From Chloroflexota bacterium (lineage in GTDB: Bacteria > Chloroflexota > UBA11872 > VXOZ01): a stretch of 43,549 nucleotides of DNA. Below are positions 8,440-43,287 of the stretch, one piece after another; positions within the stretch are counted from its first letter, which is position 1, and each line of letters begins with the position of its first letter. The notes under the pieces were generated by a model that made no database searches, was not told the DNA's origin, and saw only the letters and a program-made list of their open reading frames with translations. The stretch covers positions 1 through 43,549 of the forward strand of contig JAJEAH010000025.1 in assembly GCA_022824225.1 (NCBI GenBank), given 5' to 3'. Made by a program: the position numbers and the translations under genes.

Positions 8440-8641
8440 ACCGGCGGAGGTTCCTGTACTACGTGCGTGGCTCTTGCCGCCTGCGCTATGGCCCCGGCGA
8501 ACCAAGCCGTGAGTCTGGAATCGTCGTGTAGAAGCGCGTCTCGTTTTGGGCCGGACAGCCACCAACAACCGTGTATGCGGCGCAGAACCGGCAGCGCAGC
8601 ACGCGCGGCCCAACCAACCTGTACACCAGAAGGAGTCTGCC

Positions 8642-9649
8642 ATGCCAACCGGTCACGCCGTCGTCTTTCCCCGCGCGTTCGCGGCTGAACTCGAAGAGAT
8701 TCCCATCCCCAGTCCCGGCCCCGGGCAAATCCTGGTGAAAGCTGAGTATAGCTGCATCAGCGCCGGCACGGAACGCAAGCGCTACATGAACGTATACGCC
8801 GATTCCGGCGTGCCCCAGCGCCCTTTTCCCGTGCGGCCGGGCTACGCGAGCGTGGGCACGATCGTGTCGTGCGGCCCCGAGGTTGAGGCGTATCAGCCCG
8901 GCGAACGTGTCCTCACCATGGCAAACCACGCGAGCCATTACGTGCGCACGGTCGGCGCCGACGCCATCGACCGCCTGCCGCCGGAGACGCCATCCGATCA
9001 GGCCTCTCTGGGTGTCTTGGCGCAAGTTGCCCTGGCCGGCGTGCGCCGCGCGCCGCCGGAACTAGGCGAGGCCGCCCTCGTCGCCGGGCAAGGCGTCGTG
9101 GGGCAAATGGCCGTCCAATTCCTGAAAGCCGCCGGCTGCATGCCGGTGATTGCTACCGACGTGGCAGACTCCCGCCTCGAGCACTCGCGCACGAGCGGCG
9201 CCGACCTGACGTTGCGCGCCGACTGCGACGACGTGTATGCGGAAGTCATGGCAGCCACAAATGGCAACGGCGTGGAACGCGTCTACGACGCCACCCCGGT
9301 CCCTGCCGCCTTGCCGACCAGCCTGCGCGTCGCAGCGACGCGCGGCATCATCGTGATGCTGGGAGGGCCCATGGGCAAAGCGGAGCTGAACCTGTACGCC
9401 GACTTCTTCCGCCGCGACCTGACGCTCATGGGCGTCTTCCAGCCGCTCACGCCCACGGTGCCGACGCCGCAAACGCCCTGGACGCAGCAGCGCCACCGGC
9501 ATCTCTACCTCACGATGTTGGCAAGCGGCGCGGTTGATGCCGCGCACTTGATTACCCACGCGGCGCCGCCGGACCAGGCGACGGAGATCTACGCCATGCT
9601 GGCCGCGGGGGGCGAGGATTCCCTCGGGGTGCTCTTCGACTGGCGCTAG
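8642..9649 (+). CDS. MDR-superfamily dehydrogenase without zinc ligands
   Basis: The 335-aa protein belongs to the medium-chain dehydrogenase/reductase superfamily. The N-terminal catalytic domain has YSCISAGTE where zinc enzymes have GxCGTD, and the usual His-Glu zinc ligands are absent. The Rossmann domain starts at GQGVVGQ (Gly149-Gly154) and probably binds NAD(P). The SxISxGTE pattern is shared with BchC-like and sugar-linked dehydrogenases; the substrate is unknown. AAGGAG lies 7 nt before the ATG at 8642, which rules out the upstream frame start at 8546. It faces a distant paralogue (9849-10871) end to end, and both finish with a similar GVxxxW tail. Confidence 0.85.
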   Translation: MPTGHAVVFPRAFAAELEEIPIPSPGPGQILVKAEYSCISAGTERKRYMNVYADSGVPQRPFPVRPGYASVGTIVSCGPEVEAYQPGERVLTMANHASHYVRTVGADAIDRLPPETPSDQASLGVLAQVALAGVRRAPPELGEAALVAGQGVVGQMAVQFLKAAGCMPVIATDVADSRLEHSRTSGADLTLRADCDDVYAEVMAATNGNGVERVYDATPVPAALPTSLRVAATRGIIVMLGGPMGKAELNLYADFFRRDLTLMGVFQPLTPTVPTPQTPWTQQRHRHLYLTMLASGAVDAAHLITHAAPPDQATEIYAMLAAGGEDSLGVLFDWR

Positions 9650-9671
9650 ATTCTGGCGCGCCGCGAGGGGT

Positions 9672-9799
9672 CCCACTGTGGCGGGTGCCCACTGCCGAGA
9701 AGGCCCGCTGTAGCGGGAGCCCACTGTGGTGGGAGCCCACTGTGGTGGGAACCCACTGTGGTGGGAGCCCGCTGCGGCGGGAGCCCGCTGCGGCTAACG
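9672..9799. repeat. Array of eight 16-bp hairpin units (array A)
   Basis: Eight consecutive units of exactly 16 bp fill the space between the two convergent MDR genes. The design is 5-bp stem, 4-nt loop, 5-bp stem and 2-nt spacer. Units at 9720, 9736 and 9752 read CCCAC-TGTG-GTGGG; units at 9704 and 9768 read CCCGC-TGTA/TGCG-GCGGG. The A-to-G change in the left arm is matched by T-to-C in the right arm, so pairing is kept. The units at 9672, 9688 and 9784 are degenerate. A related array lies at 28743-28870. Confidence 0.9.
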
Positions 9800-9848
9800 G
9801 TCATGCCGGCGACTGGCTGGAGCCTTTGACCTGCTCCGGCCAGCGCCG

Positions 9849-10871
9849 CTACCACTCCAGTATTACGCCGAGGTATGCGGTGCGGTCCGCCAGAAGCTTG
9901 GGATATACTTCCGGCGCGCTGGCGGCTGGCAGGCGGTGCGTGATGAGGTCGCGCACGTTGACGAGCCTTTGGGCCAGCAATTCCATGAAGTAGGCGGTGT
10001 GCGCTCCACGCGTCCACCGGTTCTCCTGCGACTCGCCGGTGGGGTGGTTGCCAATCGCGCCAATAATCCGCAGCGGCTTGATGTGCACCTGCTGCATGTC
10101 AACCTTGGCCGGGTAGCGCGGTGAACCCAAGCCCACCACGCGGCCATGGGGACGTGTCAGTGCGAAAGTCAGGTCATACGTTTGCGTAAGGCCGGTGGCC
10201 TCGAAGACGACGTCCGCGCCGCGGCCGGCCGTCAAATCATGCACCGCGGCCGCCACGTCCTCCTGCCCGGCGGCAAGGCGGTGCGTAGCCGCCCCCACCT
10301 GCTGTGTCAATGCCAGACGCGACAACTCCAGGTCTACCGCGATCACCGGGTCGCAGCCGCCCAGCCGGAGAAACTGCACGGCGAGTTGGCCCAGGAGGCC
10401 CTGCCCGACGACAACCGCGCTCTCACCCAACTGGGGCGCGCCGCGCCGGTAGGCGTTGAGCACCGTCGCCCCCAGCGTGCAGAATGTGGCTTCTTCATCG
10501 GAGACCGCGTCCGCGATCTTCGCCGCCCCATCCAGGCGGCGCGCGATTTGGCACGTGGCGTGCCGGCCGGATCCGGCGATGCGGTCACCCGCCTGCCACG
10601 CATCTACGCCCGTGCCGACTGCGGTCACGACGCCGGCGTTGGAATACCCGGGATAGGCCGGGTACTTGGGCAACGTGCCCGCGCCGGGATTCGTCCACTC
10701 GCGGCCCGAAAAGAACGCCAACTCCGTCCCGATGCTAATCAGCGAGCGACGGGACTCCACGAGAATCTCGGCCGGTTGCGGCGCGGCAACGGGGACATCC
10801 TCCCACGCCGCACGCTGCGGGCCGGGGAACACCACGCACTGAGCCGTCATTGGGGCATCTGGGTCTGGCAT
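9849..10871 (-). CDS. MDR-superfamily dehydrogenase without zinc ligands (paralogue)
   Basis: This 340-aa protein has the same build as the product of 8642-9649: an N-terminal domain with SLISIGTE in place of the zinc-binding GxCGTD motif, and a Rossmann domain starting at GQGLLGQ (Gly156-Gly161). It also has YPGYSNAG, close to the RPGYASVG of its neighbour. GGAG lies 10 nt before the ATG at 10871; Met8 is an alternative start. It is likely an NAD(P)-dependent oxidoreductase acting on a sugar or polyol, but nothing nearby names the substrate. The two genes are convergent, so they are not one operon despite their similarity. Confidence 0.85.
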   Translation of the reverse strand: MPDPDAPMTAQCVVFPGPQRAAWEDVPVAAPQPAEILVESRRSLISIGTELAFFSGREWTNPGAGTLPKYPAYPGYSNAGVVTAVGTGVDAWQAGDRIAGSGRHATCQIARRLDGAAKIADAVSDEEATFCTLGATVLNAYRRGAPQLGESAVVVGQGLLGQLAVQFLRLGGCDPVIAVDLELSRLALTQQVGAATHRLAAGQEDVAAAVHDLTAGRGADVVFEATGLTQTYDLTFALTRPHGRVVGLGSPRYPAKVDMQQVHIKPLRIIGAIGNHPTGESQENRWTRGAHTAYFMELLAQRLVNVRDLITHRLPAASAPEVYPKLLADRTAYLGVILEW

Positions 10872-11553: not shown

Positions 11554-11862
11554 TGCCTACCTCTCAGCGTTGATGTTTGCACTATTATGGCACGGCGCAT
11601 CCGCCCTCGCAACATCGCGGGAGGCGGCAAACTCCGAATTGGCAAGCGGGCCGATTATGTGGCGCTTCGGCCAAGTCTACGTGGCGCTTCGGCCAAGTCT
11701 GCGTGGCGCTTCGGCCAGTGCAACGCGGCCTTACGGCCAGGGCAACAAAGCGCACCCTCGCCAAGGCGGCCGCTATGCGCTCTCACCTGCGTTTCGGCGG
11801 ACCAACCCGTCGCCGCCGCTTGGACCAGACCGGCCGGCGCAGGAGGCCAAGGAAGCAGAAGG
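11554..11862. other. Intergenic region holding the 22-bp array
   Basis: The gap between the two small minus-strand genes contains the four 22-bp units and a faded copy of the unit just before them (about 11641-11658). The open frames crossing the array translate the repeat and are not considered genes. Confidence 0.5.
11659..11746. repeat. Tandem array of four 22-bp units
   Basis: Three units begin GTGGCGCTTCGGCCA (11659, 11681, 11703) and a fourth (11725) reads GCGGCCTTACGGCCAG. Each unit can form a small stem: TGGC/GCCA in the first three and GGCC/GGCC around TTAC in the fourth. The array lies in the noncoding gap 11554-11862, between two small minus-strand genes. It differs in unit length and sequence from the 16-bp arrays. 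Confidence 0.85.
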
Positions 11863-26468: not shown

Positions 26469-27725
26469 TTACTCGTAGCGCAGAGCTTGGATTGGGTCCA
26501 GCCGGGCGGCCCGGTTTGCGGGATAGATTCCGAAGAAGATACCCACCGTTGCCGCCACGCTAACGGCCAGCACAATGATGTCCAGCGTCACCGCGGTCTG
26601 GAGGCTCTCGCCATCCGGGCCCAGCGGAAGTTGCGAGATGCCAAATGAGATCAGCCCGCCGAGCAGGATGCCGAGGATTCCGCCCAGCACACTTACCACC
26701 ACGCTTTCCACCAAGAACTGCACCAGGATGTCACGACGCTTGGCGCCCACCGCCTTGCGGATGCCGATTTCGCGGGTGCGCTCCGTAACGGATACCAGCA
26801 TGATGTTCATGATCCCGATGCCGCCAACCAGCAGGGATATTCCCGCGATGGCGCCCAGGAAGAGCGTGAAGACGCCGATGGCCGCGCTCACCGCCTCGAT
26901 CAGGTCTTTGGGACTCATGATGATGAAGTCATCATCGGCGTCATCGGCGATTTCATGACGTTCGCGCAGGATCGAGCGAATACTGGCCGCGCCGGCATCT
27001 ATCGTCTCTTCACGCTCATCCACCAACTTGACACTGATGGAGTTGACGGGCCGCTCGCCCTCCGGCGTGACCCAGCGGCTCAGGCGCGCTTGCGCAGTCG
27101 TGATCGGGATGAATACCAAGTCGTCCGGACTGCCGCCGAACGCGCCGCCGCCTTGTTCCTCCAGCACGCCAATGACGTGCAGCCGCAGATTGTCCGCCCG
27201 GATCGTCTGGTCTATGGGATCGTCATCCGGGAACAGGTTGGCGGCAACCGTAGCGCCGAGCACGGCCACGGCGGCCCGGGAAGAAAGGTCGGATTCCGTA
27301 AGAGTGTCGCCGAACGCAATAGTCAGATTGTTCACGGGCATATAGCTGGGCGTTACGCCTTGCACGGTAACGCGCGTATCGCCGCTTTCCGCGACCACAC
27401 TCAAATTGCGGCTGTTGCCAACCGCCGCGACGCCCACGACCGTGCCGTCCCACGTGAGTTCCTCGAGAGCCAACGAATCTTCATACGTTAGTTGTCGAAT
27501 TGGGTCTTCATCGTCGGAGCCGCCGGGACGCCCGCTAAAGATGAAGAGCACGTTGGTGCCGGCTGCCTGCAGCTCCGCCGTGATCTGCTTTTCCACGCCG
27601 CGGCCGATGGACATGAGCGCGGTGACCGACGCCACGCCGATGATCATGCCCAGCAACGTCAAGCTCGTCCGCAGCTTATTGGCGGCCAGTGCGCTGATGG
27701 CGACTTTCAGCGTTGCGAATCTCAC
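26469..27725 (-). CDS. MacB-type ABC transporter permease (FtsX-like domain)
   Basis: The 418-aa protein has a first membrane segment (about 20-40) after [20 protein letters not shown], a large extracytoplasmic MacB core domain (about 45-270) and three C-terminal segments in the FtsX fold (about 285-310, 335-365, 380-405), with the conserved [17 protein letters not shown] loop. The GTG start overlaps the ATPase stop in the sequence GTGA, so translation is coupled. It forms a tripartite unit with the ATPase and the HlyD-type adaptor. As in the YknXYZ systems of monoderm bacteria, no TolC partner is present. Confidence 0.93.
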
Positions 27726-28666
27726 CGGCGCGTCTCCAAGGGGGACGTTACCGTCGGCGTTGAAGGCTCATTCGCCGCCGCAGTTGGGCCGGAGGCGTCC
27801 GCTGAGGCAGCAGGAGCGTCCGCTGAGGCAGCGGTATCCATGCCTTTCTCGCCGCGCTCCTCGGCCTCGATGCGGCCGTCCATCATGCGGACGATCCGGT
27901 TCGTCTGGCGGGCAATCTCATCTTCGTGTGTGATGAAGACGACGGTAATGCCTCGTTCGCTATTCAGCCGCAGCAAGAGGCCCATCAACTCTTCGCTCGT
28001 GCGGGAGTCCAGGTTGCCGGTCGGCTCATCGGCCAGAATGATGGCCGGATCGGTGACCAGGGCCCGGGCGATGGCCACGCGCTGTTGCTGACCGCCGGAA
28101 AGTTCTGTCGGCTTGTGGGACATCCGGTCCTCCAAGCCTACGGCGATCAAGGCCTCTCTGGCCCGGTCGCGCCAGCTTGCGCCGCCCCGTTGCAGCATGA
28201 GGTCGCGCGCCATACCGACCCGCTCCTGGGCATCGGGCACACCGGCGGCGCCTCCGACGGGCGCTCCTGCCTGCGCGCGCCGCGCCGCCTTGCCGCCGGG
28301 GCTCCCGCCGCCGTAGAGGAGCGGCAGTTCCACCTGCTCCAGGGCGCTGACCCGGGGCAGCAGGTTGAATGACTGGAAGACGAAGCCAATCTGCCGATTG
28401 CGAATTTCGGCCAGTCGATTGTCGTTGAGCGTGCTGACGTCTTCGCCGTCCAGCAGGTATTCGCCGCCGTCCGGCCGGTCCAAACACCCCAAGATATTCA
28501 TCAGGGTGGACTTGCCGGAACCCGAAGGGCCCGTAATCGCCAAGAGTTCCCCGCGGCTGATTTGCACCGAGACACCGTCCAGGGCATGTATCTCAGAGTC
28601 GCCCATGACATAGGTCTTTCTGAGGTTGTTCGTTTCGATTACGGTCTCAGGCATGTGATATTCCAT
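27722..28666 (-). CDS. MacB-type ABC transporter ATPase with internal insert and long tail
   Basis: The 314-aa protein has Walker [11 protein letters not shown]-loop [11 protein letters not shown], signature [10 protein letters not shown], Walker [13 protein letters not shown] and the H-loop THE. Compared with the usual MacB ATPase, about 45 extra residues ([14 protein letters not shown] onward, roughly 122-165) sit between VELPLLYGG and the helix [12 protein letters not shown]. The C-terminus also carries a low-complexity tail with a 7-residue duplication ([14 protein letters not shown]) encoded by a 21-bp direct repeat at 27795-27832. Met5 is an alternative start. It drives export with the permease at 26469. 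Confidence 0.93.
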
Positions 28667-28742
28667 CTGCTCGGACGATCTTGACCTAAGTTCATTGTAG
28701 CTTGTGTTGGCTGCGGCGACCGTGTGCCTGCTTGAGCGTGAT

Positions 28743-28870
28743 CACGCCAAAGCGGGTGCCCACCAAAGCGGGTGCCCGCTAGCGCGGGTGCCCGCTAGTG
28801 CAGGTGCCCGCCAACGCGTGGTCACGCTACCGCGTGTGCCCGCTATCGCGGGTGCCCGCTATCGCGTGCG
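28743..28870. repeat. Array of eight 16-bp hairpin units (array B)
   Basis: Eight units of 16 bp with the same 5-4-5-2 design as the array at 9672. The typical unit is CCCGC-TATC-GCGGG-TG (28839). At 28823 the unit reads CACGC-TACC-GCGTG, where a C-to-A change on the left is matched by G-to-T on the right. Most other units have one mismatch. The array separates the adaptor gene from its ATPase gene inside one operon, and its last unit (28855-28870) supplies the stop codon and final codons of the adaptor. Confidence 0.9.
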
Positions 28871-30802
28871 CACGTCGATGCCGCCGCCGCCCAGGGTGCC
28901 GCCTGCCCGCACCGGGATTGCCACCTCTTCCCCTTCGCTCACGCCGCTGATTATTTCCGTCACGTCGCTATCGCGCACGCCGATTTCGACCACGCGCCGC
29001 TCTAGTTCATCTCCCGCCAAGCGCACGTACACCACGCGCTCGTTCTCTTCGCGCCGGATAGCGCGCGTGGGTACCAGGAGCACGTTGTCGCGGCTGGAGA
29101 CTTCCACTGTGGCATTGGCCGAAAGTCCACCGCGCAGGCTTTGTTCCCCAGGGTCCAGCCGGATGGTGATGGGATAGAGCACCACGCCTTGTTCGTCGAT
29201 CGAGGTCGGGGAAATGGTCTCCACCGTGCCGGCAATGATGACGTCCGGTGAGGCGTAGGTGGTCACTTCGGCCTTCTGGCCCACCTGGATTGTCGCGACG
29301 TCGGATTCGTCCACGTTCGCTCGCATTTCGATGCGGTCCGCGCGCACCAGCGTCACCACCTTATTGCCCGCCGTTTGGCCGACGCTGCCCTCGACGGCCG
29401 CCACCAGTCCGGTGAACGGCGCCCGCAGAACGGCGTCCGCCAGATTGCGCTGGGCCTTTTCGAGGTTCAACTGGGCGCGTTCTACCTGGATTTCCTGCAA
29501 CTCGACATCTTGGGCGTTGGCGCCGGTCTGCACGCGCTGCAGGTCTAGCCGCGCCCGCTCCACGTCGTTGCGCGCGCCGGCCAATTCATCCTGATCGGGT
29601 CCGGCTTGCAGGTCTGCCAGAGTCTCTTGGGCGTTTTCCAGGCTGAGCCGTTTGCTTTCCACCTGTTGTTCGGCGGTGGTGAGGTCTTCCTGCGTCGGAT
29701 TGCGCAGGTCATGGAGTTCGCGGCGGGCGATTTCCAGCGACTGCTCGTCGATTTGTACGCGGCGCCGGGCGGAGTCAACATCCTCTTTGGCCGACACTTC
29801 TGCGCTTTCCAAGTCCAGCTCCGCCTTCCTCACCGCAGCCGTCAACTCACCGACTTTCGTGCCCGGCGGCGGGCTATCAGAAAGCTCAGCCTGGCGAATG
29901 CTGATTTCCGGTTCCACGCGTTCCCGGACTTCATTGTAGTTCCGCAGCGCGGAGTCCCGTTCCCTGCGATTGTCATCGCTGTCGTCTTCCTGTACTCTGC
30001 GTTCGGCTCGTTCCCAGTGCTCGCGCGCTTCCTTCAACTCACTTTCGAAGGCGGCGATGTCGGTACGCACCCGCACCTTTTCAGTTTCCACGCGGTTCCG
30101 CGCCATGTTCAACGCGTTTTCCGCCGCCAGCAGCGTTGCCTCACTGCCTCCGGCCTCAAGGGCCTGTACTGCGGCTTGGGCCTGCGCAAACGCGCTTTCG
30201 GCATTGGCTACTTTGTTCTGGGCTGCCTGAACGGCGCTGGGGCCGGGATTCCGCAGGTTCTCCAACGACTTCACGGCTTCGTCATAAGCCACCTGCGCGC
30301 TCTTCACGTTGGCTTCCGCCTGGTTTATTTCATGTTGCGTCGGGCCCTGCTCCACGTCTGCCAGGCGCGTTTCCGCCTCCAACAGGGCAAGCTCCGCCTT
30401 GCGCACATCCTCCGTAGCCGCCGGCGCCAGCAGTTTCTCCAGATTGAGCTCGGCCGTGCGCAAATTCGTCTGTTCGCGGCGCACCGCGTCTTGGAGTTCG
30501 GTATCGTCCAGATAGGCTAGTGGATCGCCCTCCGCTACTGCATCGCCTACGGCTACCGCGAGTTCTTCCAGGTCCCCCGTTACCGAGAAAGCCAGGTCCA
30601 CCTGATCGGGATAGACGATGTTGCCTGAAGCGTTTACGGTGGTCAAGATGGTACCGCGCGTGACCGGCACGAATTCGTTTTGCTCAACCATCGGCGCGGC
30701 CTCGGTGTCACCACCCAGGAACCGCTGGACCGCAATTCTGCCAAGGAACACGAGCGCTATTACAATGAGAACCAGGATTGCGATCTTCTGCCATCTAGCC
30801 AC
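28859..30802 (-). CDS. HlyD/MacA-family efflux adaptor with very long coiled coil
   Basis: The 647-aa protein has one N-terminal membrane segment (about 7-26), the split lipoyl/barrel part (about 45-100, VNASGNIVYPDQVDLAFSVTG), a helical region of about 350 residues (100-455) with continuous heptad-like Glu/Ala/Leu/Arg patterns, and the closing half of the lipoyl and beta-barrel domains (LRAPFTGLVAAVEGSVGQ, about 460-480, and IRREENERVVYV). MacA adaptors are usually 370-400 residues, so the hairpin region is extended. It delivers substrate to or gates the MacB-type pair downstream. An extended -10 box at 30932-30940 may start this operon. Confidence 0.9.
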   Translation of the reverse strand: MARWQKIAILVLIVIALVFLGRIAVQRFLGGDTEAAPMVEQNEFVPVTRGTILTTVNASGNIVYPDQVDLAFSVTGDLEELAVAVGDAVAEGDPLAYLDDTELQDAVRREQTNLRTAELNLEKLLAPAATEDVRKAELALLEAETRLADVEQGPTQHEINQAEANVKSAQVAYDEAVKSLENLRNPGPSAVQAAQNKVANAESAFAQAQAAVQALEAGGSEATLLAAENALNMARNRVETEKVRVRTDIAAFESELKEAREHWERAERRVQEDDSDDNRRERDSALRNYNEVRERVEPEISIRQAELSDSPPPGTKVGELTAAVRKAELDLESAEVSAKEDVDSARRRVQIDEQSLEIARRELHDLRNPTQEDLTTAEQQVESKRLSLENAQETLADLQAGPDQDELAGARNDVERARLDLQRVQTGANAQDVELQEIQVERAQLNLEKAQRNLADAVLRAPFTGLVAAVEGSVGQTAGNKVVTLVRADRIEMRANVDESDVATIQVGQKAEVTTYASPDVIIAGTVETISPTSIDEQGVVLYPITIRLDPGEQSLRGGLSANATVEVSSRDNVLLVPTRAIRREENERVVYVRLAGDELERRVVEIGVRDSDVTEIISGVSEGEEVAIPVRAGGTLGGGGIDVRTR

Positions 30803-37239: not shown

Positions 37240-38610
37240 CTAGTATAGCACACTCGTTTCCTGAATCAAGACGCGAAAGCCGCCAAGACCGTCCGGCCAG
37301 ATGAGATCGGTGATTGCCCGTTTGCGCCGCAGGGCCGCCGCCGAAACGGGTTGCCGGGCGAGCGCGGCGAGTTCTTCACCGATGCCGAGCGCGAGCAAAA
37401 ACTCGGCTTGCGACTCATAGCGCGCGGTGCGCAGACCAAGCTCCGCGCCCCGATCCATCAATGCGGTAAAGTTTACGTGCGCGGTAATGTCCTGCGCGCC
37501 GATGCGTTGGTACGGGTCCGTGCTAACGCCGTGCCGATAGTAGCACGCCAGCGTGCCGCCGCTGTGCCGCGGGCCGCAAAGTTCTGCCCAGGTCGCGCCG
37601 TAGTCAATCGTAATCACCGTACCCCGGTCCAGCAATCGGGCCACGTCTTCCAGCCACGTGACGGCGGCGAGACAGATTTCACCTTGCCAACCTGGGGCAG
37701 GCCGCCCCAGATCAGCTACGTATGCCGTGAGCTCCGGTCGGCTGGGCTCACCCCACTCTCCCACCAAGTGACCGTTGTCGAGAGTTATGTACAGTTCCTC
37801 CAGCGTGTCCCCGCGCATGCGCACCCGATGCACCGGCAGCGCATCCAGAAGTTCATTGGATAGCACGACACCTGCTACCGGCTTAGCGAGAGCGGGGCGC
37901 ACGCTCACGGGTCGCGCAGCCGCCGCAGCCAACGCCTGGCGCTGGGCGGGACCAGGCCCCGGCCCGCGCTCGACCATGCGGTAGCAGACGGCTTCCCAGC
38001 ACGCCGGCGCGTCCCGGCGCAGGGCGCGGAGCACGTCCCAGCCCAGGATGCCGCGTCCCGCGCCCATTTCCACCACGTCGAAATGCCGGGGGGAGCCGAG
38101 TTGCCGCCAGACTTGCACAACGTGGCGCGCTAGATACGTGCCAAACACGCCATGGAGTTGCGGCGCGGTGTAGTAGTCGCGCGGCGGCCCGGCCTCGGGT
38201 GCGCGCGCTGCTGCGTCTCTAGCTGCAGATGGATTTCCGCTTTCGCGGGAATGACGGACCGGAGGCTTCCGGCTGTCACTGGGCTTCCGGTCGCCACTGC
38301 GCGTTTGGCCGCCACTGGGCTTCCGGTTGTCACTGGGCTTCCAGCCACTATCGGGCGTATGGCCACTACTGGGAGTATGGCCGCCGCTGGACGTGTGGCC
38401 GCTGCTGGGCGTGTGGCCACCATTGGGCTTCCGGCCGCCATGGGGAAGACCTGGGGAGGAGGTATAGTACCCCACGCCTGGCGCGTAGAGGGCGATTTCC
38501 ATGAATTCGGCGAACGTGATTCTGCCTTGCTCCGCGATCGCCGCGCGGACAAGCTCCGTTGCCGTTGCCGGAGTCTGATTCTCATTCTCAATGTCGGACT
38601 TGCTTGCCAT
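37240..38610 (-). CDS. MidA/NDUFAF7-like SAM-dependent methyltransferase with repeat-derived insert
   Basis: The 456-aa protein starts at ATG 38610 (GGAG just upstream). Residues 13-50 (LVRAAIAEQGRITFAEFMEIALYAPGVGYYT) and 145 onward (DYYTAPQLHGVFGTYLARH, VVEMGAGRGILGWDVL, VLSNELLDALPVHRV) match MidA-type arginine methyltransferases, which modify complex I subunits in mitochondria. The usual protein joins GYYT almost directly to the DxxTSP segment. Here about 90 residues intervene: ten hexapeptides of the type SGHTPS/SDRKPS (about 58-117), then VRHSRESGNPSA (118 on), which is the translated form of a dispersed hairpin repeat. Without the insert the length is normal. Confidence 0.88.
   Translation of the reverse strand: MASKSDIENENQTPATATELVRAAIAEQGRITFAEFMEIALYAPGVGYYTSSPGLPHGGRKPNGGHTPSSGHTSSGGHTPSSGHTPDSGWKPSDNRKPSGGQTRSGDRKPSDSRKPPVRHSRESGNPSAARDAAARAPEAGPPRDYYTAPQLHGVFGTYLARHVVQVWRQLGSPRHFDVVEMGAGRGILGWDVLRALRRDAPACWEAVCYRMVERGPGPGPAQRQALAAAAARPVSVRPALAKPVAGVVLSNELLDALPVHRVRMRGDTLEELYITLDNGHLVGEWGEPSRPELTAYVADLGRPAPGWQGEICLAAVTWLEDVARLLDRGTVITIDYGATWAELCGPRHSGGTLACYYRHGVSTDPYQRIGAQDITAHVNFTALMDRGAELGLRTARYESQAEFLLALGIGEELAALARQPVSAAALRRKRAITDLIWPDGLGGFRVLIQETSVLY
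38228..38256. repeat. Dispersed hairpin repeat inside a coding region
   Basis: GGATTTCCGC-TTTC-GCGGGAATGACG has the same sequence, in opposite orientation, as the TCATTCCCGCG...CGGGAATCCA units at 43081-43287. It lies in frame in the MidA-like gene and encodes RHSRESGNPS. The hairpin stem TTTCCGC/GCGGGAA is largely kept. Confidence 0.85.
38266..38445. repeat. Ten 18-bp tandem units encoding a hexapeptide repeat
   Basis: Ten units of exactly 18 bp, consensus near CKTNYGGCCRCYACTGGG, lie within the MidA-like gene. As 18 is a multiple of three, the frame is kept and the minus strand encodes ten related hexapeptides (GGHTPS, SGHTPD, SDRKPS types). Confidence 0.9.
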
Positions 38611-38811
38611 ATCGTCTCCACCCCACGTGCGGCAGGCATCATGCAAGCCACTGGCTACTCGCCCGCATCAGACGGCAATTATCAGTTTCAGTCTTGGGCT
38701 GGCAAGAGGCAAGACTTGCGAGCGTCTTGGGCCTGGAACTACTTCCAACTGTCATTTGTATGTTGTAGAAGACGGGGAGGGGGTGAAGAGGTAGCGCGAA
38801 GGGTATATCGA

Positions 38812-38835
38812 ATGTCATTCCGAACGGAGCGACTA
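38812..38835 (+). repeat. Partial REP/MITE-like arm
   Basis: AATGTCATTCCGAACGGAGCG repeats the left arm of the element that starts 28 bp further on; it has no right arm of its own. Confidence 0.75.
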
Positions 38836-38839
38836 ATCC

Positions 38840-38944
38840 AATGTCATTCCGAACGGAGCGCAGCGCAGTGAGGAATCTAAGGAGCCGCGCCAAGCGGGCG
38901 GTACGTTGCGCGGACGCTAGATTCCTCGCAGGGCTCGGAATGAC
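38840..38944. repeat. Complete REP/MITE-like element with terminal inverted repeats
   Basis: The ~105-bp element begins ATGTCATTCCGAACGGAGCG...GAGGAATCTA and ends TAGATTCCTCG...CTCGGAATGACA, so both outer and inner arms are inverted copies. It has no coding capacity. A second one lies at 39041-39122. Confidence 0.85.
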
Positions 38945-39040
38945 AAAAGATAGGAAACGCACAGCCATGCCACGCCGAACGCAGCACGCGCCCACGCCAA
39001 ACCGAACGCTGCACCCCCTATGTCATTCCGAACGGCAATC

Positions 39041-39122
39041 AATGTCATTCTGAGGAGCGCAGCGACGAAGAATCTAGAGTTGGCGGATCACCTAGATCCC
39101 TCGCTCCGCTCGGAATGACATT
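39041..39122. repeat. Second complete REP/MITE-like element
   Basis: This ~82-bp copy begins ATGTCATTCTGAGGAGCGCA...AGAATCTAGA and ends TAGATCCCTCG...CTCGGAATGACAT. It is shorter than the 38840 element, with a different centre. A further partial left arm stands at 39019-39033. Confidence 0.85.
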
Positions 39123-43078: not shown

Positions 43079-43287
43079 GTCATTCCCGCGCTCACGGGAA
43101 TCCATCCAGCCGGATCTAGCGCATCGACTTACGTTCCCATCTTTCCTGTGCTCGCAGGAATCCACTCGACCGGATCTAGCGCATTCGCTTACGTCCCCGT
43201 CATTCCCGCGCACGCGGGAATCCAGCAAGCCGCCAGGGCCGCCGCCTGGGCCGTCGCCCGTCATTCCCGCGCACGCGGGAATCCATC
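43079..43287. repeat. Four hairpin units at a 60-bp period
   Basis: Units starting near 43081, 43141, 43201 and 43262 each have the core TTCCCGCG...CGGGAATCCA. The second reads TTCCTG...CAGGAA, a paired change that keeps the stem. The DNA between units 1-2 and 2-3 is also related (both contain CCGGATCTAGCGCAT), so this is a duplicated block rather than a CRISPR. The same core occurs in reverse at 38228-38256. Confidence 0.85.

Follow-up and report, generated by a model that had tools for sequence, protein, structure and literature searches.

A tandem array of 16-bp imperfect palindromes between convergent genes in a Chloroflexota genome, probably a young intergenic minisatellite

Array A and its surroundings

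The window analysed here is a stretch of 43,549 nucleotides, contig 23 of a Chloroflexota genome of 3.37 Mb in 87 contigs. The nearest named relatives of this genome are Chloroflexota MAGs, which to judge from their isolate names would be sponge symbionts; no literature on repeats in sponge-associated Chloroflexota was found. Two convergent genes in the window, ending at 9649 (+) and 9849 (−), enclose a tandem array of short palindromic units, array A. The features of this locus are:

8636–9649, + strand: left convergent gene, zinc-dependent alcohol dehydrogenase-like (ADH_zinc_N, ADH_N)
9672–9799, no strand assigned: array A, eight 16-bp units of the pattern CCCRC-N4-GYGGG-NN
9808–9848, + strand: a separate strong stem-loop downstream of array A, CTGGCTGGAGC ... 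GCTCCGGCCAG, seen in RNA folds of 9650–9848
9849–10871, − strand: right convergent gene, zinc-dependent alcohol dehydrogenase-like

The eight consecutive 16-bp units between convergent genes that the sequence-only reading had reported were borne out: at 9672–9799 Tandem Repeats Finder gives a period of 16 with 7.7 copies and 80% matches, and there are no gaps between the units. The 5-4-5-2 layout that it had described holds for most units, with imperfect pairing in three. The arms of units 3–7 (9704–9781) pair perfectly, and three of these five units (4–6) have identical 14-bp cores. Unit 1 (9672) is CCCAC/GCGGG, with a single A.C mismatch, and units 2 (9688) and 8 (9784) are degenerate, with the 3’ arms GAGAA and GCTAA. 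The loops are TGTG, TAGC and TATC. The window has 12 copies of CCCRC-N4-GYGGG, where shuffling gives an expectation of 0.87. In the whole genome there are 126 copies, compared to 59 of the reversed control.

Pairing and covariation of the arms

The palindrome in array A is real – permuting the columns of the array seldom yields equally good 5-4-5 pairing (p about 0.01), and only ~1% of permutations match the 5-bp stem. The further claim, that units switch between CCCAC/GTGGG and CCCGC/GCGGG with both arms changing together, is weak for array A and was over-read as covariation. While five of the eight units are perfectly paired, unit 1 is a half-changed form between the two states, and because the cores of units 4–6 are identical, the ‘switches’ come down to roughly a single altered pair (4/11) rather than a series of separate events. 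When arm 2 was shuffled among units, the observed pairing was reached in ~7% of shuffles (p about 0.07).

A covariation analysis of aligned units, which had been suggested as a check, was made on 27 distinct units pooled from six arrays of this type. In the pool, 88.1% of cells are paired, compared to 84.3% when shuffled, and the covariation score is 0.183, compared to 0.125; in each case 1 of 500 shuffles was as high. Relatedness among the units alone can produce such an excess. When the pooled units were shuffled within arrays, the pairing was only slightly better than shuffled (p = 0.055).

Over all arrays pooled, one stem pair covaries modestly. This is pair 4/11 (Fisher test over the distinct cores, p = 0.015), with two-sided changes in five cells. 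Pair 2/13 has a two-sided change in one cell; its changes are mostly one-sided, with nine unpaired cells and one compensated. Each base of pair 4/11 lies within a CpG (in CCCGC and in GCGGG), and its changes are of the C-to-T kind on either strand, so a shared mutational hot spot could explain the pair. Units next to each other show no significant excess of similarity over a random ordering (p 0.08–0.15), and the order of duplication is therefore not proven.

Folding of the intergenic region

RNA folds of the intergenic region 9650–9848 are strong on both strands (z = −5.5 and −5.2). This strength comes largely from pairing between units, as is expected for any array of palindromes. The separate stem-loop, which is without a T-run, is possibly an ordinary 3’ hairpin of the convergent gene pair. 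No terminator-like site (a GC-rich stem followed by a T-run) was found in the region. No Rfam family matched the array above its gathering score; the best match, to a miRNA (22.5 bits, with a gathering score of 150), was rejected as due to chance.

Arrays of the same type in this genome and its relatives

The 16-bp layout of array A is also found at 28727–28870 in the window (array B), on contig 48 of this genome, at two sites in the congener G003 and at one site in G005. Of 400 Chloroflexota genomes, three contain a three-unit pattern with at most two mismatches, and all three belong to this genus; the reversed control had 0 hits. No exact match to the three-unit pattern was found in the viral contigs searched. 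A two-unit pattern also matched in G012, G019 and G028, which belong to other families of the class; these matches were set aside as isolated coincidences, not arrays, and an array in G006 as a different 16-bp repeat.

At its own site, array A is absent from five of five other members of the genus. All five have an ortholog of the left dehydrogenase gene beside this site, and the two dehydrogenase genes lie next to each other with little between them; the aligned gap is 7–30 bp in four congeners (by BLAST), compared to 180–199 bp in the genome studied here. A seed for array A was sought in the sister intergenic gaps, where the best match had 4–6 mismatches, at chance level. Orthologous arrays with CTTG loops occupy a third site, which lies upstream of a gene that matches no Pfam family, and have three units in G005 and four in G003; no array was seen there in the genome studied here (G000), G001 or G002. 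The search of related genomes proposed in the sequence-only reading found arrays in relatives of the same genus, though at other sites. That reading had staked its case on the presence of the array in relatives and on arm changes paired better than shuffled ones, and the outcome is mixed: similar arrays exist in relatives, array A itself is missing from its site there, and the pairing exceeds the shuffled level slightly.

The gene contexts of these arrays are convergent (array A), codirectional (array B, the contig 48 array and an array between ylxR and infB in G003) and divergent (the G003/G005 array). With all three settings represented, no common regulatory place is apparent.

Array B and its single-copy seed

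Array B lies between two genes of the same direction, and overlaps one of them:

27722–28666, − strand: ABC transporter ATPase gene, downstream of array B and in the same direction as the HlyD-like gene
28727–28870, no strand assigned: array B, nine 16-bp units with the same 5-4-5-2 layout as array A
28859–30802, − strand: HlyD/membrane-fusion-like gene, the 3’ end of which is part of array B

The HlyD-like gene ends R-T-R-stop, and its stop codon falls in the last unit of array B. In three sister species, a single palindrome lies over this stop codon. G003 has one CACGC-GGTA-GCGTG there that matches one array B unit at 14 of 14 bases, and the match is 13/14 in G004 and 12/14 in G002; the palindrome is absent from this place in G001. 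Random segments are rarely within 2 mismatches of an array B unit. The single copies in sisters indicate that array B grew locally from a seed. Array B is most likely a local duplication of a palindrome that was already present, not the insertion of a foreign element. Its arms have 3 mismatches in 40 when paired with the neighbouring unit, compared to 7 in 45 within the unit.

The preservation of this single-copy seed in sister species is the instructive feature of the system. Because the seed is kept in sisters and an array-rich genome has array-poor relatives, the birth of minisatellites can be followed here, and the genus is a useful natural setting in which to do so.

Tandem arrays across the genome

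Arrays with periods of 14–36 were counted in sampled stretches of G000 (1.15 Mb), G003 (0.4 Mb) and G001 (0.4 Mb). There are 91 per Mb in G000, 20 in G003 and 15 in G001, a four- to six-fold density of short-period arrays in G000 over these two congeners. Restricted to periods not divisible by 3, the densities are 44, 8 and 2 per Mb, respectively. Six of the 88 arrays tested are hairpin-like at p≤0.05, where about 4 would be expected, and unit sequences are diverse. With many short-period arrays and few hairpins, array A appears as one minisatellite among many in a genome rich in repeats, with a unit that is palindromic.

Several other repeats were seen. A dispersed composite repeat of several hundred bp consists of a 26-bp array followed ~120 bp later by a 27-bp array, with copies at L071:493–837, L074:11934–12296 and L077:2035–2384 and partial copies at 38806–39103 in the window and in many sampled stretches. 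The window also has an 18-bp array of ten copies (GGCTTCCGGCCGCCACTG) at 38264–38444, which is not a hairpin, and a 22-bp array (2.7 copies, 97% matches) at 11659–11717, with none reported in the scanned sister loci. A 21-bp array at L075:88–182 has the strongest hairpin signal of the sample, and directly follows a dRS3-like element at the start of its contig.

Origin of the arrays

Array A is probably a young intergenic minisatellite, with a unit of one imperfect palindrome plus two bases, built by tandem duplication. A short local palindrome would have served as the seed and been duplicated head-to-tail, presumably through replication slippage or hairpin-assisted copying, and the array would then have been extended by copying of whole units. 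Changes in both arms could arise when already-paired units are copied, or when the same C-to-T type of change strikes the CpG in both arms, which may leave half-changed intermediates behind. Template-switch correction of a quasipalindrome may also have contributed. In E. coli, template switching makes imperfect inverted repeats more perfect (PMC7202029), and in rRNA hairpins, stems with 4-base loops and those with CTTG loops show an excess of instantaneous double changes (PMC8794818). Template switching and slippage together could therefore yield arrays of paired units without selection, and the arrays are likely to be nearly neutral. On quasipalindrome template switching, in which an imperfect repeat becomes better paired in one step, the arrays show paired units as well as half-changed intermediates.

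The minisatellite reading is favoured by the empty site of array A in sisters, the array B seed, the excess of arrays in this genome, the half-changed intermediates and the lack of a detected Y1 transposase. Against it, sisters show no seed for array A, the CCCGC/GCGGG arms recur at unrelated sites, which separate seeds do not predict, the pooled covariation is above that of simple shuffles, and the likeness of neighbours is not significant. Of the two causes offered in the sequence-only reading, whole-unit copying fits better than structural selection, given the identical cores, the lineage-specific arrays and the array B seed in sisters.

Structural selection would mean that stems are kept for the sake of a folded RNA transcribed from the array, or of a cruciform with a function, for example in 3’-end protection or supercoil control. 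This is unlikely, though the pooled excess in pairing and covariation, the signal at pair 4/11 and the strong intergenic folds agree with it. The within-array shuffles, pooled or of array A alone, and the scarcity of compensation at pair 2/13 speak against it, as do the better pairing of array B units with their neighbours than with themselves and the presence of arrays in every gene orientation, gained or lost within the genus. Selection for a folded RNA is weakly supported, and the arrays do not require it. A caution follows from these arrays – unit copying, CpG sites in both arms and template switching can mimic the arm changes expected from selection on RNA.

It is quite improbable that the recurrence of the arms reflects a previously undescribed process, a lineage-specific, hairpin-templated copying that builds 16-bp arrays from hairpin seeds and drives different seeds to CCCGC/GCGGG.

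Another possible source of the units is a REP-like element spread by a tyrosine transposase, or the TTCCCGC-N4-GCGGGAA repeats of this genome, which are dRS3-like. The frequency of CCCGC-N4-GCGGG does peak sharply at a loop length of 4 (48 copies, compared to 7–12 at other lengths), and array units have the same arms and loop length; 25 of the 48 copies in the sample are TTCCCGC-N4-GCGGGAA. Either origin is nonetheless very unlikely: the array loops (TGTG, TAGC, TATC) are not the common dRS3-like ones (GAAA, GTGC), the outer TT/AA ends are absent from array units, and array B arose from a palindrome at the end of a gene. A Y1 (RAYT-type) transposase, PF01797, was not found in the genome (95% complete), while control genomes were positive, which gives no support to a REP system driven by RAYT. 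A link between array units and the dispersed dRS3-like repeats is possible, with loops and ends that differ. The dRS3-like repeats (ATTCCCGC-N4-GCGGGAAT) were seen at 43080–43285 in the window and at L058:1046–1750, and also occur in tandem with periods of 33, 66 and 99 bp.

That array A terminates the transcription of both convergent genes is highly improbable: the site lies between convergent genes and hairpins on each strand are stable, but there is neither a T-run nor a terminator-like site, sister species manage without array A, and related arrays lie within codirectional pairs (array B, contig 48, G003 ylxR-infB) or between divergent genes (G003/G005).

Comparison with known systems

The dispersed TTCCCGC-N4-GCGGGAA repeats of this genome presumably resemble the dRS3 of Neisseria. 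They have the CCCGC-N4-GCGGG core in common with array units, but unlike array A they are dispersed, have longer stems ending in TT/AA and form no 16-bp array. The Neisseria dRS3 is listed in PMC2267715. REP elements with RAYT transposases (PMC3733652) are likewise short extragenic palindromes that are sometimes clustered, whereas array A is a 14-bp palindrome in a regular 16-bp tandem, with no Y1 transposase found in its genome, and its palindromes have neither GTAG nor CGTC as a constant tag at their foot (the linkers are AG, TG, AA, CA and others).

Quasipalindrome template-switch mutation (PMC7202029, PMC8794818) also gives better pairing without selection and favours 4-base loops; here, however, the palindrome is tandemly duplicated as well, and no loop inversion was seen. 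Bacterial intergenic minisatellites (PMC6749651) share with these arrays the short head-to-tail units, patchy presence among close relatives, variable copy number and often non-coding periods. They differ in that the unit here is an imperfect palindrome and the 5-4-5-2 layout recurs within one genus. With a regular head-to-tail period, and with presence and copy number that differ among congeners (3 units in G005, 4 in G003), array A most likely belongs to this known kind, the bacterial minisatellites, and is not put forward as a new functional RNA or mobile element.
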